DNA of 37,247 nucleotides from a virus: IMG/VR virus record IMGVR_UViG_3300007960_010542, positions 1 through 37,247 of that record. The stretch is one strand, 5' to 3'. The notes below the pieces were generated by a model. That model did not search any database. It had not been told where the DNA came from and worked only from the letters and a program-made list of their open reading frames with translations. This document shows, one piece after another, positions 2,163 through 37,242 of the stretch. The stretch's first letter is position 1. The number at the start of each line of letters is the position of its first letter. A program made the translations under genes and the position numbers.

Positions 2163-3986
2163 TTACACCGTTGTTACAATAATATCTGTTTCTGGATATT
2201 TTAATTCAAAAATTGAACCTGGAGGACCAATTACCATTCCCCTTATCGTATTATTTGGGGCATCAAAAAACACATCAGAATATGCTCTATTATCAAAAGT
2301 TCCATTAATTCCTTGTATGCTGATGTCGGTTATCGATAAAACCCCTGGAATTCTTATGACTTCACTAAAAACATTTGAAATCTGAATAGGTTGATCGATT
2401 TGAATCTTGTCAGTTCGAAGCAGATTTCTTGTAGCAGAAATAACCTGCCTAATTACATCATTTTTGTTTGCATTACTATCAGGAACAATTGTTATTTGAA
2501 TTACGTAGTTTATTATTCTTGCATCAAGAATGTCAATAGCATCTGAAATTAGCCTAAATTCATTTAGATAGTTTTTAATGTTTTGTTTTAGAAGATCAGG
2601 AGACATGGATAGTTTTCCATTCTCATCTCTTGAGACAATATACATTAGTGTTGATAGCGGATTTTGACTAGATTGTCTAATACCAGCTCTAAAAACTCTT
2701 CCAAACTTTGAAGGAAGTGAATAAACCCTTGCCAGTAAGTCAGCTTTTGTAACAATTCTTTGTTGGGCATTCTTAGACGCAGGAATTTGAACTCTTAATT
2801 GATCGATAGTGGGTGCTATATCTCCTCCTGATGAGGGTTGTTCATTGATAACATCGATGGAAGATCTAACAAGGGTCGCTATTGGAGATGAAGAATTTTT
2901 TCTAAACTCTACAAGAAGTTCTTCAATTGTTCTTATAGAACCTTGACTTACATTGTGAGTTAGTCCTCCACCAGCCCGATACGTAATAGTTAAAGTGGTT
3001 GATGTGGGTGATATACCAAGGGTTCTGGACCTTAAAAGACTGTTTGGATCTAAAGTAAATCTTGGAATTGTTTCTTTTCCGAATAGTGGAAGAGCCAAAT
3101 TAGATGGATCGGGGAAAATGTTTTCATCTGTTATGTTTGGTTCACCACCACCAAATCTCAGCTCGGTACTTCTGCTAAATAAATCGGTAACAACCTGGAA
3201 TCTTCGAGGCGAGGAGACAACTTGAATATTACTGTTCACTAAATCCCTGTCTTCATTTAGATTTTTTACGCCTACAAAAACTGTGTCTTGAGTTAGTGAA
3301 TCAACTTCATACCATGTGTTACCATCAGAATCAATAACTGATATTACTTCGGTGACATTAGAATTTGAAAGTGAAATTGTTCTAAATGGTACAAAGCTTG
3401 AATTGAAAGAAAATTGTTCTACAATAACTTCACCAGAAACAGCACTTACATTTGCAGAAATAATAAATGAAGTAGGTAAGCCTGCATTGTCTATGCTTGA
3501 AACCTGTATTTTTGCAAGGAGATTCCCTAGTCTATCAACGCTGGAAAAATCCAAATCTTCAATAGTTGAAAAACTAACGCCATTAGAAGAGCGAAGTTTG
3601 GTGTTTTTTAGAATTACAGGCAAAAATCTTTCATCTGGAACTCTTTCTCCATTTACGGTTGTTGCTGGCACTTCTAAGAAAAATGTCAAATTTACAAGAG
3701 AAGGAGAATCTCCAGTTATTTTTACCCCATTGTTTTCAAGGTGCCTTTGAATGTTAGAGACTTCAACAGCATTTGACCACGAAAGTTCGTTAAACTGATG
3801 GTCTAAATAAAAAGAAAGATTATCGCCAATAGCGGAAGCCATGTCTAGAAATAGACCACCTACGCTGGCTTCACTAAAATCTTGAATTTTATCAGGAAAA
3901 AATGTTCTTGCATATCTTAGAAGATCACTTCTAAAATCATTGAAATCTTTTGACAAATAGTTTCTTGATGGAGTTATTTTTGCCAT
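2163..3986 (-). CDS. Baseplate wedge protein, gp6-like (baseplate J family)
   Basis: A 607-residue protein whose N-terminus (SRNYLSKDFNDFRSDLLRYA, then FFPDKIQDFSEASVGG and FLDMASAIGDNLSFYLD) matches the pattern of T4-like gp6 wedge proteins, which dimerise and tie neighbouring baseplate wedges together. T4 gp6 is about 660 residues, so the length fits. The C-terminal part (ARIINYVIQITIVPDSNANK, then IQISNVFSEVIRIPGVLSI) is the usual baseplate-J tail domain. It follows the gp25-like gene by two bases, the usual gp25-gp6 neighbourhood of contractile tails. The family call is confident; it rests on motif reading rather than a search. Confidence 0.85.
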   Translation of the reverse strand: MAKITPSRNYLSKDFNDFRSDLLRYARTFFPDKIQDFSEASVGGLFLDMASAIGDNLSFYLDHQFNELSWSNAVEVSNIQRHLENNGVKITGDSPSLVNLTFFLEVPATTVNGERVPDERFLPVILKNTKLRSSNGVSFSTIEDLDFSSVDRLGNLLAKIQVSSIDNAGLPTSFIISANVSAVSGEVIVEQFSFNSSFVPFRTISLSNSNVTEVISVIDSDGNTWYEVDSLTQDTVFVGVKNLNEDRDLVNSNIQVVSSPRRFQVVTDLFSRSTELRFGGGEPNITDENIFPDPSNLALPLFGKETIPRFTLDPNSLLRSRTLGISPTSTTLTITYRAGGGLTHNVSQGSIRTIEELLVEFRKNSSSPIATLVRSSIDVINEQPSSGGDIAPTIDQLRVQIPASKNAQQRIVTKADLLARVYSLPSKFGRVFRAGIRQSSQNPLSTLMYIVSRDENGKLSMSPDLLKQNIKNYLNEFRLISDAIDILDARIINYVIQITIVPDSNANKNDVIRQVISATRNLLRTDKIQIDQPIQISNVFSEVIRIPGVLSITDISIQGINGTFDNRAYSDVFFDAPNNTIRGMVIGPPGSIFELKYPETDIIVTTV

Positions 3987-3988
3987 GT

Positions 3989-4462
3989 TTATCCTGCAGC
4001 GTAAAGAATGACGTCTATCTTTCTTTCTTTGTTATCAATTTGCGATATAGAATATGTGATTCTAATACCAACTTTTGCCAAAGAGTTTTCTTGACCAATT
4101 TCAGAAAATGGTTCGAATGTTCTTAATTGAATAAAGGGCAAATATCTGGAAACAGCCTGTGATATTCTTGAAATGGCTTCATTATCAAAATCTTCGCTTC
4201 CTAATTCAAATGTCAATTCTTTTAGATTGGCTCCGAATTGATAATCCATCAATCTTTCTCCCCAGTTGGTAAGAAGAAGATTTCTAAAATTGTCCTCGAT
4301 TGTTTTATCAAGATTTCTATGCATTTTCAATAGGCCATCATTAGAATCGCCTAATTCTAAAGGAGTTTTTATTCCAATAGGAGGCTCTTGAACCCTTTGT
4401 AATCTTTGTTGGGTTCTTTTTTGATGATCTTCACCAACAGATTTAAAATCGTATTTTGCCAT
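3989..4462 (-). CDS. Baseplate wedge protein, gp25-like (GPW/gp25 family)
   Basis: A 157-residue protein with the family signature TNWGER at about residues 65-70 and FGANLKELTFE at about 76-86, as in the short sheath-initiator/wedge proteins of contractile tails. T4 gp25 is about 130 residues; the extra length is a charged N-terminal extension (residues 1-45). The start is ATG at 4462, preceded by GAAGGG as ribosome site and a roughly 50-base gap from the preceding gene. It sits immediately upstream of the gp6-like gene, and the two form the wedge core with gp53-like partners in T4. No odd residues seen. Confidence 0.88.
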   Translation of the reverse strand: MAKYDFKSVGEDHQKRTQQRLQRVQEPPIGIKTPLELGDSNDGLLKMHRNLDKTIEDNFRNLLLTNWGERLMDYQFGANLKELTFELGSEDFDNEAISRISQAVSRYLPFIQLRTFEPFSEIGQENSLAKVGIRITYSISQIDNKERKIDVILYAAG

Positions 4463-4512
4463 AAAAACCCTTCACAATCTAAATATCAAAAACATAGATT
4501 TTGACATCAAAA

Positions 4513-4767
4513 TTATGAAGATCCTGTTGATGTTGCTGTTCCTGTAACAGGTCCTGATGGCGATGTTCCAATAATAGTTCCTGTGGTATTTACGGTTACA
4601 ATGATAGACGTAACATACAGGTGTATGGCATCAGTAAGGCTCGTAGAAAACTGTGTGATTAAATCGTCAGAATTGACTGATTCATCTTGTCCTGAATTTC
4701 TTACTTGAAGAAGTGCTTCTTTGATTTGTTGTGAAAGAATTTCTCTACCTGGTGCTTGAACTGGCAT
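4513..4767 (-). CDS. Small protein in baseplate block, unknown function
   Basis: An 84-residue protein. The first half is helical and polar (SQQIKEALLQVRNSG). The second half is hydrophobic, beta-like and Thr/Gly/Ser-rich, ending in TGTATSTGSS. I do not recognise a family and see none of the PAAR-type His/Cys pattern expected of a spike tip. It lies three bases downstream of the gp5-like hub gene and upstream of gp25, so a small baseplate component or hub accessory is the reasonable guess from position only. Confidence 0.55.
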   Translation of the reverse strand: MPVQAPGREILSQQIKEALLQVRNSGQDESVNSDDLITQFSTSLTDAIHLYVTSIIVTVNTTGTIIGTSPSGPVTGTATSTGSS

Positions 4768-4770
4768 TGA

Positions 4771-6312
4771 CTATTCCCCGAATATTCTTGTTGATTTAAT
4801 ACTTGGAATCTCCAGCTCTCTCTGCTGCATTTTAATTTTCAACTGTGTGGCTGCGCTGGTAATTTGTGGAGATGGAGCTCCAAATCCAGGAGTAACATGA
4901 GTTATAAGCGTATCACAAAATTGATTAACATCAGAAATAATATTGGACAGAAGTTCCTCAAGTTGCTGATATTTTACGAAAGGCTGTGAGTTTCCAGGAG
5001 CGTCAGAACTTCCTGAGTCTTGACCTCCATTCGCTGAAGATCTTCCAACAAAAATTCTATCTCCACTAATTAAAATTGTTCCGTCTGGTTGCAATTGAAT
5101 TGCGCAACCATTAGATGAAGGATCACCTTCTTTTAATATCGTGATTGATCCATTAAAATTGTTTGATGAATCTTCTCTTGCAATAATTCTGATTTCATCG
5201 GCTTTTATTGCAATTGCTGAGGATTCCTCCTCAGAAGAAGGCAAAATAGGATCTATTTCCCCAGGATTTGTTGGGGTCATGTTTCTTAGTCCAAAAGAAT
5301 CGTCAACCTTCATTTTACTGCTTACATAGACTCTCGCAGCATCATCTAAAAAGTCAGGATCTCCTTCGGTTTGAAGTTTTTGTCCCTGATAATTTTCTTT
5401 TGAGACTTCTTCATACCCTCTTGTATTTAGATAAGTGTTTGGATTTGTTCTAATTCCTCTCTCATTTTCACTTGATATTTTTCTAGACCTACCAGCAACT
5501 ATGTCAATAGTTCCACTAAATGGATTGATTTTTTCATTTACATTGCTCTGATTTTCTTCTACTGAAGACGAAAGAGATGACCACCCTCTATCAGTCGTTA
5601 AAGAAATAAGTGTGTTATTGGAACCTTGTAAAACAAGATCTCCTGGTCTTTTCTTGTATCTTGGAACAGGCTCAAGTTGATTAATGTCGGTATTGATTTT
5701 AGAGAAAATTTGTTCATAATTTTCAAAATCTTGATTCAAAGAAATATTAGGAAAATCATCTTCTGGAGCATTGATCGATTGTGATTCTTGAAATGTTCTT
5801 GGAGATCCTCTCGACTTTTCATAAGTTCCTGGGGTTGTTGAGATTTCATTCACATTAGGAATTACTGCTTGACTTCTATCAAAATGAGAAAAATTCAAAT
5901 CCTCAGAAAATTCATCCCCTGCAACCCTGGATAACCAATATCCTTTGTTTTTGTCATCACTGTCAAAAACAATCCACGCTGTTTCGCCTTCTTTTACAGG
6001 AAGACAAAAGTGAGATGAAAAAAACGGGTACGCTATGACATAGTTTGTATTACTCTCAGAACCAATTGAATCTACACCTTGATCGATGATTCTTGCAATG
6101 ATGGAGTTCTTTGGAATTCTAAACTCCTGAATGGAGGGTTCAATTTGCTTTGAAAGTTGATAAAAATCACTTGCATTGATGGCAGAATCATCGGTAAGCA
6201 CATGTGTCACAACTGCCTTGAAAAAAGGATTAATCACTTTCTCAGAAGAGAGTTTTGAAATATCGTTTCTTCTTCTTTCGTTAGCATCGAAAATGTAGTT
6301 ATTGATATTCAT
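4771..6312 (-). CDS. Baseplate hub/spike protein with gp5-like OB fold
   Basis: A 513-residue protein. Residues about 40-130 look like the gp5/VgrG-type OB fold: IIARIIDQG, then VIAYPFFSSHFCLPVKEGE and TAWIVFDSDDKNKGYWLSR. The middle is Asn/Ser-rich linker. Near the C-terminus short alternating beta strands (AIAIKADEIRIIA, GSITILKEG, AIQLQPDGTILISGDRIFVG) resemble a beta-prism needle, followed by a helical tail. No lysozyme domain like that of T4 gp5 is visible, so cell-wall cleavage, if needed, must be encoded elsewhere. It is the first recognisable baseplate gene of the block. The OB/needle reading is fairly secure; exact T4 equivalence is less so. Confidence 0.75.
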   Translation of the reverse strand: MNINNYIFDANERRRNDISKLSSEKVINPFFKAVVTHVLTDDSAINASDFYQLSKQIEPSIQEFRIPKNSIIARIIDQGVDSIGSESNTNYVIAYPFFSSHFCLPVKEGETAWIVFDSDDKNKGYWLSRVAGDEFSEDLNFSHFDRSQAVIPNVNEISTTPGTYEKSRGSPRTFQESQSINAPEDDFPNISLNQDFENYEQIFSKINTDINQLEPVPRYKKRPGDLVLQGSNNTLISLTTDRGWSSLSSSVEENQSNVNEKINPFSGTIDIVAGRSRKISSENERGIRTNPNTYLNTRGYEEVSKENYQGQKLQTEGDPDFLDDAARVYVSSKMKVDDSFGLRNMTPTNPGEIDPILPSSEEESSAIAIKADEIRIIAREDSSNNFNGSITILKEGDPSSNGCAIQLQPDGTILISGDRIFVGRSSANGGQDSGSSDAPGNSQPFVKYQQLEELLSNIISDVNQFCDTLITHVTPGFGAPSPQITSAATQLKIKMQQRELEIPSIKSTRIFGE

Positions 6313-6687
6313 TTAATTACCCGAGATTTTGCTAAAGATATCATCAGTCGTTATTACACTTGATTCATCCTGAAGAGGTTTTATTAGCTCGGCTAACTTG
6401 ATAAGTTGGTCGTTTGCTTTTGACATTTTGTCTAAGTATCGAGTCAATACAGGGCTAATGTTGACATGATCTACCGCAGATGAAGAATCCATTGTTTTAA
6501 AGGCTAGCTCAAACATCATCAATGAAGCGGATCTATCTTGCATTGCATTATGAAAAATCTCTTTCCATAAGAATTTTCTTTTTTCTGACATGTTTTGAAT
6601 GGACTCTAAAAGATCTCCAAAGTCATCGAGCTTCTTTTCTAAAGCTTTAGCATCATTTAAAACCTTTTCAATATGATTGTTTGTCAA
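6313..6687 (-). CDS. Helical protein, unknown function (TTG start)
   Basis: A 124-residue, almost entirely helical, charged protein with no Cys and no membrane segment. It begins with TTG at 6687, supported by GGAG seven bases upstream and by a TTGA overlap with the stop of the sigma factor gene, which suggests translational coupling. It abuts the hub/spike gene with no spacer. Its place between the late sigma factor and the baseplate genes hints at a virion-assembly role, but I recognise no family. Confidence 0.6.
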   Translation of the reverse strand: MTNNHIEKVLNDAKALEKKLDDFGDLLESIQNMSEKRKFLWKEIFHNAMQDRSASLMMFELAFKTMDSSSAVDHVNISPVLTRYLDKMSKANDQLIKLAELIKPLQDESSVITTDDIFSKISGN

Positions 6688-10940: not shown

Positions 10941-11380
10941 TAAACGGATCTCTTTTGAAGTGAAAGAAAAATTTTGTGTTTTAGGTCAGTTAAAGAATAA
11001 TCATGATTTCTTTCGCAGAAATATACAGGAATTCCTAAATCATCACCTGTAAATTTTTTGTCGACATAGTCATTGCCAAGAATTCTCACATGAATTGAAT
11101 GTTTGTTATTGTCTAATAATCTATAAAGTGATTCTTCAGTATTGTAATACCAAACATCGTCAATGTATCTGATGGATTCCAGAACTTCTTTTCTTTCGTC
11201 CCATGATTGAACTGGTTTGCACTTAGAAGGACGATCAACAGTTGGATCATTTTGAAGAAGAACAATAAGCCAATCACATGCATTTTCTTTGGCTTCCTTG
11301 AACATTCTAATATAGCCAGGATGAATTAAATCAAAAGATCCTGCTATCACCCCAACCTTACCTTTGTTTTCAAGATTCAT
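10940..11380 (-). CDS. Cytidylyltransferase-like nucleotidyltransferase
   Basis: A 146-residue protein of the cytidylyltransferase superfamily. [10 protein letters not shown] at about residues 14-23 is the H-x-G-H-related nucleotide-binding motif (here HPGY), and later [19 protein letters not shown] is the second conserved block. Members activate glycerol-3-phosphate, heptose-1-phosphate or similar with CTP or ATP. It is clearly a paralogue of the C-terminal half of the fusion protein at 18144-18863: both have FDxIHPGYIxMFKxAK, PVQSxxxRK and RILGxDYxDK. The second His of the classic motif is replaced by Tyr in both. It overlaps the gmd gene by 11 bases. Substrate not determined. Confidence 0.75.
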
Positions 11381-12371
11381 TTTTTTTCTTACTTACCTCC
11401 TGAATTGCAAGAGCAAAATCAGATTGATAGCACATTTTCACAAGTTGTGTGAAATTAACTTTCGGCTCCCAACCTAAAACTTTCCTTGCTTTCGATGAAT
11501 CTCCCAACAAAAGAGGAACTTCATGAGGTCTCTTTAGCCTTTCATCAATTTGCAAATATTTGTAGGGATCTAATCCAGCATATCCAAATGCAGTTTCCAA
11601 CAAATCTCTTACACTATGAGTTTCACCTGTAGCGACAACGTAGTCGTCAGGTGTGTGATGCTGGGTCATTAACCACATAGCATTCACATAATCACCGGCA
11701 TATCCCCAATCTCTTTTTGCTTCTAGATTTCCAAGTCGAATCTCATTCTGAAGACCTAATTTGATTCTTGCGGCCGCTAATGTCACTTTCCTTGTGACGA
11801 ATGTTTCTCCTCGTCTAGGAGATTCATGGTTAAACAAGATACCAGAGCAAGCAAACAGACCATAGCTTTCTCTATAATTTCTCATAAGGTTATGTGCATA
11901 TACTTTAGCGCAGGCATAAGGACTAGCAGGCATTAAAGCCGTTTGTTCATTTTGTGGAGCAACAGGGTTATCACCAAACATTTCAGAAGAAGAAGCCTGA
12001 TAAAATCTTGAGTCTGGACAACAGTGTCTCATTGCTTCTAAAAGTCTTAACGTACCGGTTGCAACAATATCAGTAGTTTCTACAGGGCAATCAAAACTAA
12101 CCCTGACGTGGCTTTGAGCTGCTAGATTATAGATCTCGTCAGGCTTATACTTCGTTAGAATATGATACATCCACGAGCTATCGTGCATTGACCCATAGTA
12201 CATTTTGAAATTTGGATGATTGTAATTGTGATCAATTCTATCAGTCGATATCGTGCTTGTTCTTCGTTTGATTCCAATTACCTTATATCCCTTTTTTAAA
12301 AGTAGATCTAAAAGATAAGATCCGTCTTGGCCAGTTACACCGGTGATTAAAGCTGTTTTTTTCTTAGTCAT
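11370..12371 (-). CDS. gmd: GDP-mannose 4,6-dehydratase
   Basis: A 333-residue extended short-chain dehydrogenase. [11 protein letters not shown] at residues 10-20 is the NADP-binding glycine loop with the Gmd-specific [15 protein letters not shown] follows, then SSSEMFGDN (residues 127-135) and the catalytic PYACAK with Tyr152 and Lys156. [12 protein letters not shown] and [17 protein letters not shown] are Gmd hallmarks. It converts GDP-mannose to GDP-4-keto-6-deoxymannose, the first step to GDP-fucose; the second step is encoded at about 14248-15183. Length is slightly shorter than bacterial Gmd (about 370). It overlaps the sugar dehydrogenase gene by eight bases. No mannose-activation genes are present here, so GDP-mannose would come from the host. 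Confidence 0.92.
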
Positions 12372-13254
12372 CTGATACCGCCCTTCCTTTCATCACTTCC
12401 CAGTCTCTAAACTTTCGACACTTATCATTGTAGTCCTGCACGGCTTTAAGAAAATCCGTATCTCCTTCATTTTCAGAGCCAAAAGCAATCATTGCAGCTA
12501 AATCTTTTGGAAAACAGTGGCCACCAAAACCTAAATCTCCATCGGGCCCAGGAACTGCTAAGTGGCTCTTTCCTATTCTAGGATCATGCAAAGCATATTC
12601 GCAGACTTTATCATAATCAATGTTGTTGTCTAAACAAATTTGAAACATCTGATTAGCAAAAGTAACCTTTGTGGCAAGGAAACAGTTCGTAAAGTACTTT
12701 ACCATTTCAGCAGTAGAAGATTTGGTTATAACAATAGGAATCCTAGGAAATGCTTTTCTAAGCATCTGCTTGACATCTCGAGCGCCATCGCCTCCAATAA
12801 GAATCCTAGACTGATTTTTAAAGTCATCAAAAGAATTTGCCTCAGTTAAAAACTCTGGGCTAAAACAAAGATTGATTCTAGGATAATTTTCAGCTAAAAC
12901 GTCCGTAGTGCCGGGAGGCACTGTTGACTTTATCACAAAAGTCTTTTTGTGTTTTTGTGAATTAAGAAAATCAGAATGCTTCGGACTAGGATTTTGTTTT
13001 TTCAAGCTCTCGTAAGCACTATTCAAAGCAGACTTTAGAATACGCGTATCACAAGAACCGTCAGGTCGCATCGGCGTCGGAACACAAACAAAGATAATGT
13101 CGCTGTGCCAAATGACCTCGTCAACAGATTTATTATCTACCAGATTAAAACATTTGGTAGAGTCTAAATCGTAAGCTTTAATGTTATAAAAATTTTTAAG
13201 ACCTTCTCTAATAGCTGATCCTACAAACCCTTGGCCTATAATACCTATGTTCAT
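12364..13254 (-). CDS. UDP-glucose/GDP-mannose dehydrogenase family protein, short form
   Basis: A 296-residue protein with GQGFVG (residues 7-12) for NAD binding, [35 protein letters not shown] with the catalytic Lys186, and GGHCFPKD with the nucleophile Cys247. It would oxidise a nucleotide sugar twice to the uronic acid (UDP-glucuronate or GDP-mannuronate). Typical enzymes are 390-450 residues; here the C-terminal UDP-binding domain is missing while both catalytic regions are intact. Overlaps the next epimerase by ATGA. Which sugar it oxidises cannot be told. Confidence 0.85.
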
Positions 13255-17422: not shown

Positions 17423-18157
17423 ATCTTTTAAAATCCTCTTTAAAGTATTTGTTTATCTCATGTATTATAGCAACAGGAATGTGTTAGGTATAATAGTCGT
17501 TATTATAATTTTCTGCGCCTTGGACAATAGTGTTAGGATCGTAATTTTTTTCGTTACTCTATTAACATAGTCGCTTCTTTCATTAGCTAAGTCTAACAAA
17601 GCAGAGCCAGTGGTTTTGCAAAACTTTTTTATATCCCTTTCAAGCTGTTCGAAACGTATATGATGGTCGATAACATAGTCATCGTTTATTAACCATACAC
17701 CACACTGGCCGCGTGTTAAATCATGCTCGTCTATACCATGGTATCTTTCACGGCATTCAAAATCTTTCATAGTTTTTTCAAATATACGATGAGTTCTTGG
17801 AGTTTTTCCGTAATTTTTCCAACAAGCGCCGAGCAATAAAGAATATGGGTTTCTTACAGTTACAACTTTTGAATATTCCCAAAACAAGTTTTCTCGCCCT
17901 TGTTCCCTGAACAATTTTAAAGCAGCTGTAGGTGTAATCTCTCGAGAAACAGCATGGCCTCCCTTCTTGGTTACTTCGGACTATGGCTTATAAAATTTAT
18001 CGAATATTTTCTCATTATCTTTGCACCAATCATCGGTATCCAAGATTGTAAAAAGGTCATTGTCGTGATAATGACACAACGACAATTGTAAAGACCTGGT
18101 TGCAGTATTTCCAATAGAGAAAAAATAAATAAATTTATGCGTGTTACTTACGATCAT
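17400..18157 (-). pseudogene. Broken sulfotransferase gene (amber codon, frameshift, ochre codon)
   Basis: Read as one gene, the frame from ATG 18157 gives KFIYFFSIGNTATRSLQLSL, a PAPS-binding loop like that of the Sulfotransfer_2 family. It stops at TAG (17983-17981) and then continues in the same frame as SEVTKKGGHAVSREITPTAA, leading to VVTVRNPYSLLLGACW (3'-phosphate loop) and IRFEQLERDIKKF. Near 17548-17540, at seven A residues, the reading must slip one base: the shifted frame gives NYDPNTIVQGAENYNNDYYT, a TAA (17486-17484), then HIPVAIIHEINKYFKEDF and a final TGA at 17402-17400 overlapping the methyltransferase start. That final overlap is typical of intact genes here, so a full-length sulfotransferase once existed. 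Three lesions suggest real decay. Confidence 0.72.
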
Positions 18158-18863
18158 ATACACTTTTTGCAATTCTACGTTTAAGGTCTGACGCACTATG
18201 ATTGTGTGATCGGTCATGCCAATGAACCTTACGATTTAAATCTTTTCCATTATAGTCTTTATCGATGTAATCGATACCCAATATTCTTACATCGTATATG
18301 TCGGTCTTTAGTATTTCATAAAGCTCCGCTTCTGTGTTATACTCAACAACAGAATCAACATATTTAATCGATTCAATAATCTTTTTTCTATCTTCAAAAG
18401 ACTGTACCGGCGGGTCTTTCTCTGGTCTGTCTATTCTTGGATTATCTTGAAGTGCTACAATTAATTTTTTACAAACAGACTTGGCGTCCTTAAACATTTC
18501 AATATATCCTGGATGTATTATATCAAAAGCTCCACATATAATTCCAGACTCATAACTTTTGTTTATTTCGTTACGCCATTCTACTGCGTTGATTGCAATG
18601 TCATCAATAATGATATCAGCCGAGGGTTTTTTGTTCATAATCAACTCATGAAATTTAAGTCCCCAATTAGTCAATTGCTCTTTTGTTAAATTGGTCCAGT
18701 CTGTCCCAGAAGACATACCTCTAGCTGTAAATATTTTGATCGTATGTCCTTCATCGTAGAGTTTATTTACTTGACTAATGCAGTCATCGAAAGGTTTTGC
18801 ATTCTTGTAGTCTCCCCAAGTATTAGAACATAGGGTGCCGTCTAGATCAAAACAATATTTCAT
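18144..18863 (-). CDS. Fusion: HAD-type phosphatase + cytidylyltransferase-like nucleotidyltransferase
   Basis: A 239-residue, two-domain protein. Residues 1-100 are a HAD hydrolase: DLDGTLC at 6-12 with both catalytic Asp residues, TARG at 46-49 and DIIIDDIAIN near 83-92. Residues about 105-239 are a nucleotidyltransferase with GAFDIIHPGY at 111-120 and DRPEKDPPVQSFEDRK. Following a GHMP kinase, this could remove the 7-phosphate of heptose-1,7-bisphosphate and then activate heptose-1-phosphate with a nucleotide. The second domain is a paralogue of the single-domain protein at 10940-11380. The HAD domain is not an obvious GmhB, so the substrate is inferred from neighbours only. It abuts the kinase gene with no spacer. 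Confidence 0.8.
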   Translation of the reverse strand: MKYCFDLDGTLCSNTWGDYKNAKPFDDCISQVNKLYDEGHTIKIFTARGMSSGTDWTNLTKEQLTNWGLKFHELIMNKKPSADIIIDDIAINAVEWRNEINKSYESGIICGAFDIIHPGYIEMFKDAKSVCKKLIVALQDNPRIDRPEKDPPVQSFEDRKKIIESIKYVDSVVEYNTEAELYEILKTDIYDVRILGIDYIDKDYNGKDLNRKVHWHDRSHNHSASDLKRRIAKSVYDRK

Positions 18864-19832
18864 TTATCCCTCTATTATTTTACAGCCATCATAGTCAAAT
18901 TTAAAAGGAACTCTTTTGAACCCGGCAGACTCCATTTTTGTATCTATTTTAGAGTGATTTTCCGGAATGTACAACATCATAAAACCGCCGCCACCGCCGC
19001 CGATAATTTTTCCTCCAAGTACCTCTTTTTTCGAATGCATTTCCTGGTACAAAGATTCCACATTTGAAACATGCATCTTAGTTGAAACCGACTTTTTAAC
19101 CTCCCAATGTTTGTGTAACAAAGTTCCCCAGCCGTCGTAGTCTCCTGATAGCAAAGCATCCTGGGACATGCACCCTATTTCTTTTATCTGGAGCATTGCC
19201 TCTTCTATAGATGGGGGATTTGAATGTTGAAGAGCTAAAATCTTTGAAGCGTTTCTAGTAGTATTTGTGAAATACATTCTGCAGTTTTTATAAAATACAT
19301 CTTTATCCGGAAGATCTAAAGTCTGATTTTTTACTAGGCCATCTTCGTCAATAGAAAATGCTTGGACTCCACCGAAAGAAGCAATATATTGATCTTGTTT
19401 TCCGACAGGCTCCCCTAAAACGTCGTGTTCAATTTTAAAAGCAAGTTCTGCCAACGATGCATCGCTCCACACTGTATCGTGCATAGTATGTAAACACTTT
19501 AGTAAAGCCACAATATAACTGCCAGAAGATCCTAGTCCTGAGCCGGAAGGTAAGTCTGCGATAGAAGTTATCTCGTAGCCGTTTTTTGCGTTAAAGTGCT
19601 TTAAGCATTCGCGAGCTCTGTCGTGTTTAAGCTTCTCTACATCGTCAACAACTTCAGTTGCTAGATATTGACATCTTATGTTGGTATCTAAAATGTTTTT
19701 CTTAAGACCAACGTAAATATATTTGTCTATTGCGGCAGAAATAAAAAAAGCCCCATGTTTAGAATAGAATTTAGGCATATCGGTACCACCGCCACCTAAG
19801 GTAATTCTAAAAGGGGATCTTGCTATAATCAT
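18864..19832 (-). CDS. GHMP kinase, D-glycero-D-manno-heptose-7-phosphate kinase-like
   Basis: A 322-residue GHMP-family kinase. ARSPFRITLGGGGTDMPKFY at residues 4-23 is the substrate motif shared by HddA and fucokinase-type enzymes. ADLPSGSGLGSSGS at about 92-105 is the ATP-binding motif 2, KIEHDVLGEPVGKQDQY follows, and GGKIIGGGGGGFMM is motif 3. It would phosphorylate C1 of a sugar phosphate. Its place next to a GmhA-like isomerase, a transaldolase and a phosphatase-nucleotidyltransferase fits the HddA step of heptose activation. A fucokinase-like activity is the main alternative. Overlaps the transaldolase gene by four bases. Confidence 0.85.
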   Translation of the reverse strand: MIIARSPFRITLGGGGTDMPKFYSKHGAFFISAAIDKYIYVGLKKNILDTNIRCQYLATEVVDDVEKLKHDRARECLKHFNAKNGYEITSIADLPSGSGLGSSGSYIVALLKCLHTMHDTVWSDASLAELAFKIEHDVLGEPVGKQDQYIASFGGVQAFSIDEDGLVKNQTLDLPDKDVFYKNCRMYFTNTTRNASKILALQHSNPPSIEEAMLQIKEIGCMSQDALLSGDYDGWGTLLHKHWEVKKSVSTKMHVSNVESLYQEMHSKKEVLGGKIIGGGGGGFMMLYIPENHSKIDTKMESAGFKRVPFKFDYDGCKIIEG

Positions 19833-20527
19833 AATGTGTAGCCAGCGGCATTTGCGTCATTATAAAACATCTGCACGGTCTCTAGAGAAAATTGTTCTAA
19901 GGGCTTCCCAGCCAATTTTAATTTCGAAAGAATGTCAGGAGTTGCAGTTATGATTTCACAGCCGCACTCTTCGGCCTGATAAACATTTAAGACCTCTCTT
20001 GGCGATGCCCACAGCAATTCGAATCCTTCAAAAGCACCTACTATTTTTTTACAATTTATCATGTGCGGAATAGGGTCTATACCGGTATCGGCTACTCGTC
20101 CAGCAAAAACAGATATTACTGCAGGTGTACCAACATTTAGTGACAGACAAACATCTTTAACCTGTTCCAAGGTAAAAATAGCCGTTACATTTAACTTAAC
20201 GCCTTCTGATGAAAGCCTCTGAATAATTGGAGAGGTAGATACACCTTTTGTGTTTGTCACTGGGATTTTCACGTAGACATTGTCTCCAAGAAGAGAAAGT
20301 TTTGTAGCCTGAACGTACATTTCTTCTAGTTCATCACTAAACACCTCTAAAGAGATAGGTTTTGGGCTAACTATAGAAACCGCTTGCTTAGCAAATTCAT
20401 AATAGTCTTGCACGCCTGCTTTTTTCATTAAAGTGGGATTAGTTGTAAAGCCTTGTATAGAGTCATCATTACTTAGTCTAGTGATGTCTTCTAAATCTGC
20501 GCCGTCGCAATATAGTTTTATTTTCAT
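19829..20527 (-). CDS. Transaldolase-like aldolase (TalC/MipB type)
   Basis: A 232-residue TIM-barrel protein with DGADLEDI, GFTTNPTLMKKAG, EVFSDELEEM and VYVKIPVTNTKG holding the Schiff-base Lys87, and later NVTAIFTLEQV, FAGRVADTGIDP and WASPREVLNVYQAE. The length suits the short TalC/fructose-6-phosphate aldolase group. Phage transaldolases are known from cyanophages as carbon-metabolism genes. Here it is wedged between a GmhA-like isomerase and an HddA-like kinase with 4-base overlaps on both sides, which suggests instead that it supplies sedoheptulose-7-phosphate for heptose synthesis. That role is inferred. Confidence 0.9.
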   Translation of the reverse strand: MKIKLYCDGADLEDITRLSNDDSIQGFTTNPTLMKKAGVQDYYEFAKQAVSIVSPKPISLEVFSDELEEMYVQATKLSLLGDNVYVKIPVTNTKGVSTSPIIQRLSSEGVKLNVTAIFTLEQVKDVCLSLNVGTPAVISVFAGRVADTGIDPIPHMINCKKIVGAFEGFELLWASPREVLNVYQAEECGCEIITATPDILSKLKLAGKPLEQFSLETVQMFYNDANAAGYTL

Positions 20528-34584: not shown

Positions 34585-34830
34585 TTATGTAACTATGATC
34601 TTCTTGTCTGGTTTTTGTGTTTTTTCCAATACTTTTCTTGATTCTTCTATAATCACCAACGATTCATCTCTATTTTCTAGTTCAAAAGCCAATAATTCAA
34701 TTATCTTTGCACGTTTAAATTCATCAACCCCGTATTCATTAATTATAGAGACAATCCTTCTACATTCCAAAGTTTTTTTAGCCCATTTTGCATCTTCAAT
34801 AGAGAATTCTTTTTTTTCTTGTTCTTTCAT
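34585..34830 (-). CDS. Small helical protein, unknown function
   Basis: An 81-residue, highly charged, helical protein (SIEDAKWAKKTLECRR, then FKRAKIIELLAFELENRDE). It begins four bases inside the end of the zinc-ribbon-like gene (ATG 34830) and is followed by the disordered protein after 22 bases. No family recognised. A 98-residue frame on the plus strand over the same bases has no ribosome site and is taken as a shadow. Confidence 0.55.
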   Translation of the reverse strand: MKEQEKKEFSIEDAKWAKKTLECRRIVSIINEYGVDEFKRAKIIELLAFELENRDESLVIIEESRKVLEKTQKPDKKIIVT

Positions 34831-35324
34831 TTTGTCTCCAAGGCTTCTACGAAGCTAAATGATTCAATTTTCATTTGTTGATTTCCGTTAATTATCAATC
34901 TTTTTCCATTGCAGACGCCATCACTATATTCCTTTGCAATGACAATGGAATCTCCCCACATTTCATTTGAAATAATGAAGTGTGCTTGTTCCCATGTAGA
35001 AAGATCACATGAATAATTTAAAAGCAATTCTGTAATAGAACTCGGAATCATCAAGGCTATATCTTTTTCTGTAAGAATCGAGCTAACTTTTTCCTTTGAT
35101 AAGATCTCTGATTTACAAAGATCATATACCCGATGAATAACGCCACAATTATTGCATTGAGCGTTTTTTTCAATAACATTTTCATTTTCATCGATTATTG
35201 AAAAAACTACGAATGAATGTAAAGGTGGATTTTCCAAATTTTTTAAATGAGGCAAAAAACATCTGCATTGAACCAGGTGTTTTTGACCTTTTAATTTCTT
35301 CTTTTCTTGCCTCTGTTCCATCAT
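34827..35324 (-). CDS. Zinc-ribbon-like protein, unknown function
   Basis: A 165-residue protein. HLVQCRCFLPHLKN gives Cys20 and Cys22, and AQCNNCGVIHRVYDLC gives Cys57, Cys60 and Cys70 with His64, so a zinc-ribbon-type metal site is likely. Between them PPLHSFVVFSIIDENENVIE is a beta-hairpin-like stretch. The C-terminal half is mixed helix and strand, with STWEQAHFIISNEMWGDSIV. Overlaps the preceding 66-residue gene by ATGA. I know of no function; similar proteins are usually listed as hypothetical in T4-like marine phages, from memory only. Confidence 0.6.
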   Translation of the reverse strand: MMEQRQEKKKLKGQKHLVQCRCFLPHLKNLENPPLHSFVVFSIIDENENVIEKNAQCNNCGVIHRVYDLCKSEILSKEKVSSILTEKDIALMIPSSITELLLNYSCDLSTWEQAHFIISNEMWGDSIVIAKEYSDGVCNGKRLIINGNQQMKIESFSFVEALETK

Positions 35325-35585: not shown

Positions 35586-36059
35586 TTATCTAGACACTTT
35601 ATCTGCAACTGAGGAAGACGCCCAGGCGTTTGGTTTTGTAAGAATGTCATATCCCATTGAAGAAACAAAACCTTTCACAATTGCGTGATATTTCGCTGAT
35701 TCTGTGTCACAGATAGCAACGTCAGCATGAATAACAATTTCAACACTGGCATTTTCGTAATCAGTGAAAGCGATCTCCTTGACCTCCTCAGCAGCTAGAA
35801 TTGAAAGGGTTGTCTCTTTCATAATTCTATCATAGAGGGTCTTGAACTCATCTCGAAGAAATTTTTCTCGTTTATAATAGAAAGTACCACCATTACCAGG
35901 CACATATACGCATAAAGCTGTTGCAAAAAGCCATTTTCCACCGATAAGATGGGAATCCGATCCAACATGGATTTGGGCGTTTTCTTTTTCTACATCTTTC
36001 ATAATTTCTTCAAAAGAAACTGGTTTTCCTTTTGAGTTTAACCATTGCTTACTTGTCAT
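35586..36059 (-). CDS. RNase H-fold protein, YkuK/DUF458-like
   Basis: A 157-residue protein with IHVGSDSHLIGGKWLFATAL and CVYVPGNGGTFYYKREKFLR, then EIVIHADVAI. The Gly-Ser-Asp-Ser-His start, the G-N-G-G-x-x-Y-Y block and the I-H-A-D strand are the recognisable pattern of the DUF458/YkuK family, which has an RNase H-like fold with acidic residues (Asp34-like in GSDS and Asp in HADV). Substrate unknown. Overlaps the chaperonin-like gene by 11 bases. Confidence 0.78.
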   Translation of the reverse strand: MTSKQWLNSKGKPVSFEEIMKDVEKENAQIHVGSDSHLIGGKWLFATALCVYVPGNGGTFYYKREKFLRDEFKTLYDRIMKETTLSILAAEEVKEIAFTDYENASVEIVIHADVAICDTESAKYHAIVKGFVSSMGYDILTKPNAWASSSVADKVSR

Positions 36060-37242
36060 AAGACACTGTTACCTTTGTATTATTTATGATTTCCACAAAT
36101 GAATTTGCTGACTTTTTTGCCTCACATAATGAGTGAGACGGAATAATTATATCCTTTCCCATGAGATTTACAATCGATATTCCGTGTTTTCTAGAAAAAA
36201 GAATAAACCTCACTAGAAGTTGAATTCTATCCTTTACTAGACCTTTAAGACCTCCAAACTCTCTACCTAAAGAAATGACGATTTTTCTTGAAGAAATTCT
36301 TCTAGCTCTCATCGAGGCCCATTCTTTTGATGAAGGATCTTGCGGACTATCATCAATTATTTTTTTAGAAATCGCATTTGATGAGCGCGACAATTTTGCA
36401 TCGTTAATGATGATCTTTCCTTTTTCTATCTCGATTTGATCAATGCAACCTGCTCTTTCTTTCCATACGTCATCCACTCCTATTCTATTTCCCCCTAAAA
36501 TATTTGGAATATCAATAAACAAAAAGTTGTCCAACAAGTCTCCAGAAATTGATGCTGGAATGACTTTTAGTTTTTTTGTTCTCCAATTGTAAAGGAGGGT
36601 AGAAACTACTTCATATCCAAAACCTCTTGCTAAAAGAATTCCTGCTTCATCTTTTTGTGATAAATCTTCAAGCAATCGATTGATGTCAGCTACCTTTTCA
36701 ATTACTCCATCAAATGTAAAGAAATTTACATCTCTAAGCTCAATTTTTTCTCCAAATTCTCCTGGAATAGAAGCTGCAATTTCGATACAATCATTCATTT
36801 TTATGAAAGTTTGACCACTTGTTTCTTCAACTTGAATAATTGCATTTGGACCAGAAATACTGATCGCATCAAAGAAAGCTTTTCCTAAATTTTCGCCTAA
36901 CAAATCTCTGCATATTTCGCTTAGGGCTTCTGCTGTCATTTTTTTGGAAACTTTTTTCTCAATTTCTTTTTCAGCTAATTCACACAAAAAAAGAAACGAT
37001 GAAAAAGGAGAAGCCTGTTCACATTTATAAGCTTCCCTTGAAATCATTTCCCAGAGAATTCTTTTTGAATTGTCGACACTCATTTTTGAGATAGCTCTTA
37101 AACAATCTTCTTCACTAAGCAAGATTGCTCTATTATTAGAGACCTCAATTAAAGTTTCGTTCTTAATATTCTTGACAATTGAATCAGCAATAACCTTAAC
37201 GTTGTCTTTTAGATTATTGCTGATTTCTACTTTTGAGAACAT
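36049..37242 (-). CDS. Divergent GroEL-like chaperonin
   Basis: A 397-residue protein. An in-frame TAA directly precedes ATG 37242, so the N-terminus is complete. Segments line up by eye with GroEL. LGKAFFDAISISGPNAIIQVEETSGQT corresponds to the intermediate segment ending in VITVE. LLARGFGYEVVSTLLYNWRT and KLKVIPASISGDLLDNFLFI, then DIPNILGGNRI, correspond to the apical block with D-I-A-x-L-T-G-G. CIDQIEIEKGKIII follows. The place of the ATPase motif GDGTTTAT has QASPFSSFLF instead, and the C-terminal equatorial domain is about 100 residues short. It may be a phage folding factor or a host GroEL partner without ATPase. The homology is my reading. Confidence 0.55.
   Translation of the reverse strand: MFSKVEISNNLKDNVKVIADSIVKNIKNETLIEVSNNRAILLSEEDCLRAISKMSVDNSKRILWEMISREAYKCEQASPFSSFLFLCELAEKEIEKKVSKKMTAEALSEICRDLLGENLGKAFFDAISISGPNAIIQVEETSGQTFIKMNDCIEIAASIPGEFGEKIELRDVNFFTFDGVIEKVADINRLLEDLSQKDEAGILLARGFGYEVVSTLLYNWRTKKLKVIPASISGDLLDNFLFIDIPNILGGNRIGVDDVWKERAGCIDQIEIEKGKIIINDAKLSRSSNAISKKIIDDSPQDPSSKEWASMRARRISSRKIVISLGREFGGLKGLVKDRIQLLVRFILFSRKHGISIVNLMGKDIIIPSHSLCEAKKSANSFVEIINNTKVTVSYDK

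Follow-up and report, generated by a model that had tools for sequence, protein, structure and literature searches.

A predicted ATPase-less, internally shortened chaperonin relative encoded beside the DUF444-SpoVR-PrkA genes of large uncultured phages

We describe here a protein encoded by a window of 37,247 bases (the whole stretch of DNA analysed, an IMG/VR virus record from a large uncultured phage) that is shown, as far as alignments and a predicted structure can tell, to be a catalytically dead, rebuilt Cpn60: the three domains follow in order, the nucleotide pocket appears erased, and the equatorial domain seems to have been shortened internally. In relatives, the gene is the fourth of a DUF444(YeaH)-SpoVR-PrkA cluster and often overlaps the end of prkA. 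Our leaning, a tentative one, is that the protein may partner the PrkA/SpoVR/YeaH machine as a chaperonin-fold protein without catalysis of its own.

Genomic Context

The open reading frame lies at the very end of the window, next to an RNase H-like gene:

36049-37242, minus strand: chaperonin-fold ORF, complete, predicted to be ATPase-dead; 397 aa, coordinates including the stop codon
35586-36059, minus strand: RNase H-like gene (PF04308, E 4e-27), starting 11 bases inside the end of the chaperonin-like ORF

The record stops five bases past the ORF, yet the N-terminus of the protein is complete because an in-frame TAA (37245-37243) immediately precedes the ATG. The RNase H-like gene also adjoins the chaperonin-like ORF in the nearest relatives, and a viral-contig scan with this neighbour as query retrieved no relatives. 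In the 484-kb megaphage L094 (LR756508.1, positions 3462-6468), genes for DnaJ (Pfam E 1e-22) and Hsp20 (Pfam E 1e-21) are followed at a short distance by the RNase H-like gene, which therefore adjoins other chaperone genes too.

A baseplate-wedge-like protein is encoded at window positions 2163-3986. Positions 7701-32398 hold a long block of sugar/glycan genes, glycosyltransferases among them; assigned genes include a GDP-mannose 4,6-dehydratase (11370-12371), a UDP-glucose/GDP-mannose dehydrogenase (12364-13254), a cytidylyltransferase-like gene (18144-18863), a GHMP kinase (18864-19832) and a transaldolase (19829-20527). A 165-aa protein with a CxxC pair (34827-35324) gave no Pfam match at the set limits; look-alike ORFs occur at a similar place in L081, L082, L088 and L089, and it seems to be a conserved protein without an assigned family.

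Family Members and Kinship with Chaperonins

A viral-contig scan with the window protein alone yielded no relatives. The baseplate-wedge-like protein, used as query instead, led to 80 related viral loci, and a search of 36 records of these loci uncovered two relatives of the ORF (E 4e-16 and 6e-17), both adjoining a relative of the RNase H-like gene. Scanning with these three sequences added two further relatives, giving a five-sequence set. Its alignment (A4) found no relatives in a scan of bacterial and archaeal genomes, which, being a search with one pattern only, is weak evidence of absence. Removal of near-duplicates at 80% shared 5-mers reduced the final collection from 82 to 71 sequences, or 72 with the window; alignment A8, which leaves out the shortest member (L189), has 71 rows including the window. 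In the tree, the 72 members form one clade (branch length 1.9, support 0.635), within which L122, L123, L130, L089 and L088 are nearest to the window (the latter two also numbered L120 and L121). The full-length chaperonins closest to the window are those of L102, L083 and L101, not the copies from genomes that carry the gene. The tree thus bears on a possible origin of the family through recent duplication of the chaperonin of the same phage, without deciding for or against it.

On its own, the window protein shows a likeness to GroEL models that is weak and at the edge of detection. Its best NCBIfam model was GroEL3_Chlamy (NF038369) at E 0.0024, with 16.6 bits against a cut-off of 600, followed by PRK12849 at E 0.01 and PHROG 5725 at E 0.037; Pfam and a phmmer search of the PDB gave no match for the single sequence, and there was no PF00118 match in the window record or, at E 0.01, in any of the 71 family members. 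With the five-sequence profile, the likeness is beyond chance at the sequence level. Searched against the PDB, this profile matched GroELs, which are group I chaperonins, at E 1e-14; its hhalign alignment with ten phage chaperonins (probability 99.0, E 3e-18) covers the intermediate and apical domains. All its matches outside its own family were chaperonins, namely those of nine other records and the full-length copies in G006 and G012. Family members reached E 1e-12 with NCBIfam GroEL models, and 60 of the 71 matched PHROG 5725 ('chaperonin groEL'); automatic annotation may therefore count catalytically dead members as working GroELs. The original prediction, made from the window sequence alone, had called the protein GroEL-like and named profile comparison and structure prediction as checks; the profile searches thus bear out the kinship.

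Predicted Structure

AlphaFold2 supplied with 71 sequences produced a confident model (pLDDT 92.2, pTM 0.85); a model built from five sequences (pLDDT 47) was set aside for fold assignment. Foldseek with the confident model ranked GroELs first (E 5e-20), and in a viral structure library full-length phage chaperonins came first. Against Thermus Cpn60, 389 residues aligned with a Z of 21.9 and an rmsd of 5.5, model residues 1-396 corresponding to chain residues 3-527. The high whole-length rmsd is probably due to a differing orientation of the domains in the model; the apical domain alone fits chaperonin apical domains such as that of 5cdk over 164 residues at 2.9 Å. GroES-bound conformers headed the structural ranking, in which rows within 1 Z count as tied. 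The equatorial-intermediate-apical fold is present in the predicted structure in chaperonin order, and structure prediction thus supports the original reading as well: the fold is that of a chaperonin and not an unrelated one. The domain limits below were set from the structural alignment with Cpn60, together with the domain limits of GroEL:

36943-37239, minus strand: N-terminal equatorial segment, model residues 1-99 (predicted structure versus Cpn60)
36988-37005, minus strand: model residues 79-84, reading F-S-S-F-L-F where GDGTTT would stand (alignment, two methods)
36787-36942, minus strand: first intermediate-domain segment, model residues 100-151 (predicted structure versus Cpn60)
36292-36786, minus strand: apical domain, the family's most conserved part, model residues 152-316 (structure alignment, conservation)
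36184-36291, minus strand: second intermediate-domain segment, D398 position lost, model residues 317-352 (alignment and model)
36052-36183, minus strand: C-terminal equatorial remnant, with the last helix and strand kept and about 75 preceding residues absent relative to GroEL

Loss of the ATPase Site and Internal Deletion

Catalytic positions were read from alignments of the 72 family members with seven full-length chaperonins, made by two methods. Aspartate at the positions of D87, D398 and D495 was found in none of the 72, as opposed to all seven full-length proteins. At the GDGTTT position the window protein reads F-S-S-F-L-F, the threonines of this motif are substituted in nearly all family members, and GDGT[TS] occurs in none of the 72. 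Aspartate at the D52 position is present in 22 or 34 of the 72, depending on the alignment method. The original claim that the ATP-binding motif has been lost is thereby confirmed, no ATPase motif turned up elsewhere in the protein, and a chaperonin relative without ATPase is strongly supported in the window and across the 72 members.

That prediction had also held that part of the equatorial domain is gone and that the protein ends near GroEL residue 440. The first point stands as an internal deletion of about 75 residues; the second does not, as the model spans the Cpn60 chain nearly to its end and the gap is internal. D398 and D495 positions are 25 residues apart in the window (family median 26) versus 65-108 in the seven full-length chaperonins, and the distance from the D87 position to the ISAN motif is a median of 41 residues in the family and 33 in the window versus 63-64. 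Since the P496 position (conserved in 50 of the 72) as well as the last helix and strand, both present in the model, remain, the equatorial domain has been shortened from within. C-terminal truncation is ruled out by the end-to-end structural alignment with Cpn60.

Selection and the Apical Face

Reading frames of 364-478 aa are intact in the 71 deduplicated relatives. We computed dN/dS for all pairs at 60-98% identity and more than 85% coverage (n = 9, among which L137 and L138 versus L140 gave identical values and are to be counted as one); ratios were 0.06-0.20 in eight of the nine pairs, the ninth being saturated. By this measure the family is under purifying selection. Loss of the catalytic residues and deletion of part of the equatorial domain might suggest a functionless, decaying chaperonin gene, an idea that we give almost no credence in view of the open frames, the fixed position of the gene (see below) and the confidently predicted fold; on the dN/dS ratios, pseudogene decay is rejected.

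Conservation is concentrated in the apical domain: of the 79 sites that make up the best-conserved fifth, 50 fall there, as opposed to 15 in both equatorial segments together, the least conserved part of the family. Among the apical positions, that of L237 is hydrophobic in 72/72 and that of F204 in 70/72 members. The L234 position is His, Asn, Asp or Glu in 69/72 and hydrophobic in three; hydrophobic residues occupy the L259 position in 36/72 and the V264 position in 32/72, and the Y199 position is mostly polar, with Tyr mostly lost. This pattern reads as an apical face kept as a binding surface for something, though probably not as the general hydrophobic groove for substrate and GroES.

Linkage to the DUF444-SpoVR-PrkA Cluster

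In relatives, PrkA is encoded directly upstream of the gene, and SpoVR and DUF444/YeaH come before PrkA; in L089, Pfam recognises the three at E 1e-143, 3e-114 and 1e-109, respectively. From the 231 relatives that a PrkA scan of IMG/VR gave, we used the best 80, and the resulting locus set is biased to the closest clade for that reason. The chaperonin-like ORF lies downstream of PrkA on the same strand in 78 of these best 80 loci, with the order DUF444-SpoVR-PrkA-gene in 75, SpoVR-PrkA-gene in two and PrkA-gene in one; the median distance from the PrkA end to the open frame is 8 bases (below 500 in 68/78). The available stretches of the other two loci, L186 and L193, showed no chaperonin-like gene. 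In L193 the gene may lie beyond the contig end; the ORF directly after its prkA (L193:6960-7814) resembles, judged by eye, a GIY-YIG homing endonuclease.

In the converse scan, 14 members of one subfamily served as query, so that loci were not chosen by PrkA. PrkA was upstream in 24/24 loci, many of them the same contigs as in the PrkA set. An ATG recurs at one fixed point, some 31 bases short of the prkA end, in 23 of the 24; being also inside prkA codons, this overlapping ATG may be conserved for the sake of PrkA. The window record ends before the prkA position, and the cluster is seen in relatives: the five nearest (L122, L123, L130, L089, L088) carry both the full cluster and the RNase H-like gene. 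Six PrkA clusters, from Thermus phages and from four megaphages, all lack the gene; from this, and from the 2/80 loci without it, it follows that PrkA does not need the gene in general.

Complete DUF444(YeaH)-SpoVR-PrkA stress clusters occur commonly among large uncultured phages of this kind (L089:1465-5912, L090:1099-5547, L091:1102-5538, L120-L199). Pfam weakly matched an ORF at L090:10325-11500, with a similar one at L091:10380-11552, to Tubulin/FtsZ (E 9.7e-6, 26 bits where the cut-off is 33); the ORF possibly encodes a phage tubulin-like protein.

The genomic linkage also bears on the roles put forward in the original prediction, binding of phage capsid or tail proteins or mixed rings with host GroEL. 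In the first case the protein might work by itself and without ATP as a holdase, much like an isolated apical domain. The apical domain fold is intact in the model, and the chaperonin of Pseudomonas phage EL prevents aggregation without encapsulation (PMC7185714). We nevertheless consider this role improbable: the family is tied to PrkA in both scans and not to structural genes, the polar L234 position and the lost Y199 speak against general hydrophobic binding, and a complete chaperonin of the phage itself (see below) would be a likelier ring partner than host GroEL.

Full-Length Chaperonins in the Same Phages

Co-occurrence was analyzed in 30 gene-bearing records exceeding about 61 kb, namely 29 from the set of 80 PrkA loci and the record of L090. 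Seven of the 30 encode a PF00118 chaperonin, and a complete one is present in 5/5 records above 200 kb. A 140-kb record has a partial chaperonin at its end; a 171-kb record carries the gene and no PF00118 chaperonin, and may be a fragment. GDGTTT is present in the three full-length copies inspected (L084, L085, L092). PF00118 has no match in the six phages whose PrkA cluster lacks the gene, and the gene is absent from nine chaperonin-bearing records examined; thus the gene seems to imply the chaperonin but not the reverse, which within one lineage can reflect shared ancestry. Cpn10 (GroES) was found at E 0.01 in none of the 30 records; G032, which is related more distantly and has a normal chaperonin, does encode it. 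Near the full-length chaperonin of L092 is situated a sigma-70-family gene (Pfam Sigma70_r2, E 1e-23), and ORFs that look like it are found near the copies of L084 and L085.

The co-occurring chaperonin fits a partner other than the PrkA cluster: the protein might join the chaperonin encoded by the phage itself, either as a dead subunit of mixed rings that alters cavity or client range, or as a cap that replaces the missing GroES lid. We rate this as unlikely, though as the foremost alternative to partnership with PrkA. It would agree with the complete chaperonins of the largest records, with their absence from the phages that have PrkA clusters without the gene and with the lack of Cpn10 in the 30 records; moreover, the N-terminal strand, the hairpin and the C-terminal strand, which form ring contacts in GroEL, are all present in the single-chain model. 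It sits less well with the poor conservation of the equatorial segments, with the great distance between the two genes (for example, 70 kb versus 255 kb in G012) and with the 171-kb record, should the latter not be a fragment; and the co-occurrence comes from one lineage, as noted.

Discussion

With the catalytic residues gone from every member, the protein would presumably have to act by binding; as the gene is tied to prkA, the partner is most likely within the cluster; and as the apical face is the most conserved part, it is the likely contact. Gene neighbourhood can, of course, reflect shared regulation only. In the mechanism that we favor, the protein would serve the PrkA AAA+/kinase machine as an adaptor or scaffold that has no ATPase, and would hold one fixed partner, be it PrkA, SpoVR, YeaH or their client, with its conserved apical face. 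The ATP-driven step would be supplied by PrkA, and any real folding might be left to the active chaperonin of the same phage, in the way BBS proteins link a client to CCT. Carried further by this analogy, PrkA, YeaH, SpoVR and the dead Cpn60 could constitute a four-part AAA+/chaperonin machine in which the latter links the complex to the phage's active chaperonin, a prokaryotic counterpart of BBS-CCT; this extension is more doubtful than the role as ring subunit or cap, though less so than that as holdase.

Several known systems share features with the family described here. Group I GroEL/Hsp60 proteins (PF00118), including the full-length GroELs of phages, have the same three-domain fold in the same order and align end to end; the window family differs in lacking the ATPase residues and a PF00118 match, in its internal equatorial deletion and in its linkage to PrkA. 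Chaperonin gp146 of Pseudomonas phage EL is likewise phage-encoded and of chaperonin fold (Z 18.5, 387 residues), but it is ATPase-active, with double rings that split into single rings (PMC7185714), whereas the window family has no ATPase residues. BBS6, BBS10 and BBS12 are diverged chaperonin relatives whose role is not folding but the bridging of an active chaperonin to one client, BBS6 and BBS12 having an altered ATP motif (PMC5534436). They resemble the window family in their way of working only, being eukaryotic, derived from group II CCT8 and marked by insertions, in contrast to the group I matches (models and structures) and the deletion seen here. Chlamydial GroEL2 and GroEL3 are diverged GroEL paralogs beside a normal GroEL, and GroEL3 gives its name to the best-scoring, far sub-threshold NCBIfam model mentioned above. 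For bacterial GroEL paralogs, including those of Chlamydiae, the available part of PMC1892554 describes functional divergence and not the architecture or gene cluster of the window family. Finally, the Thermus phages TMA and phiLo have the same three neighbours, DUF444-SpoVR-PrkA, by annotation or profile, and lack a chaperonin-like gene in the stretch examined and PF00118 in the genome.

Phage chaperonins that bear an ATPase and diverged chlamydial GroEL paralogs are thus already known (PMC7185714 and PMC1892554). The open-licence literature searched yielded neither a phage chaperonin described as lacking the ATPase nor a pairing of a chaperonin with PrkA; an ATPase-less, internally shortened chaperonin family fixed in the PrkA cluster did not turn up there either.

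The usual reading of a phage chaperonin is that of an additional folding machine; here, a conserved branch has kept the fold and dropped the ATPase. Its retention beside the PrkA set in dozens of related phages means that it has probably taken on a new, non-catalytic job. PrkA/YeaG combines an AAA+ domain with a kinase-like domain, both required for function in E. coli, and its biochemistry is disputed: PrkA of Bacillus anthracis displayed negligible kinase and protease activity in vitro (PMC13001217). If the partnership proposed here is true, the phage version could open a way into the function of PrkA, YeaH and SpoVR.
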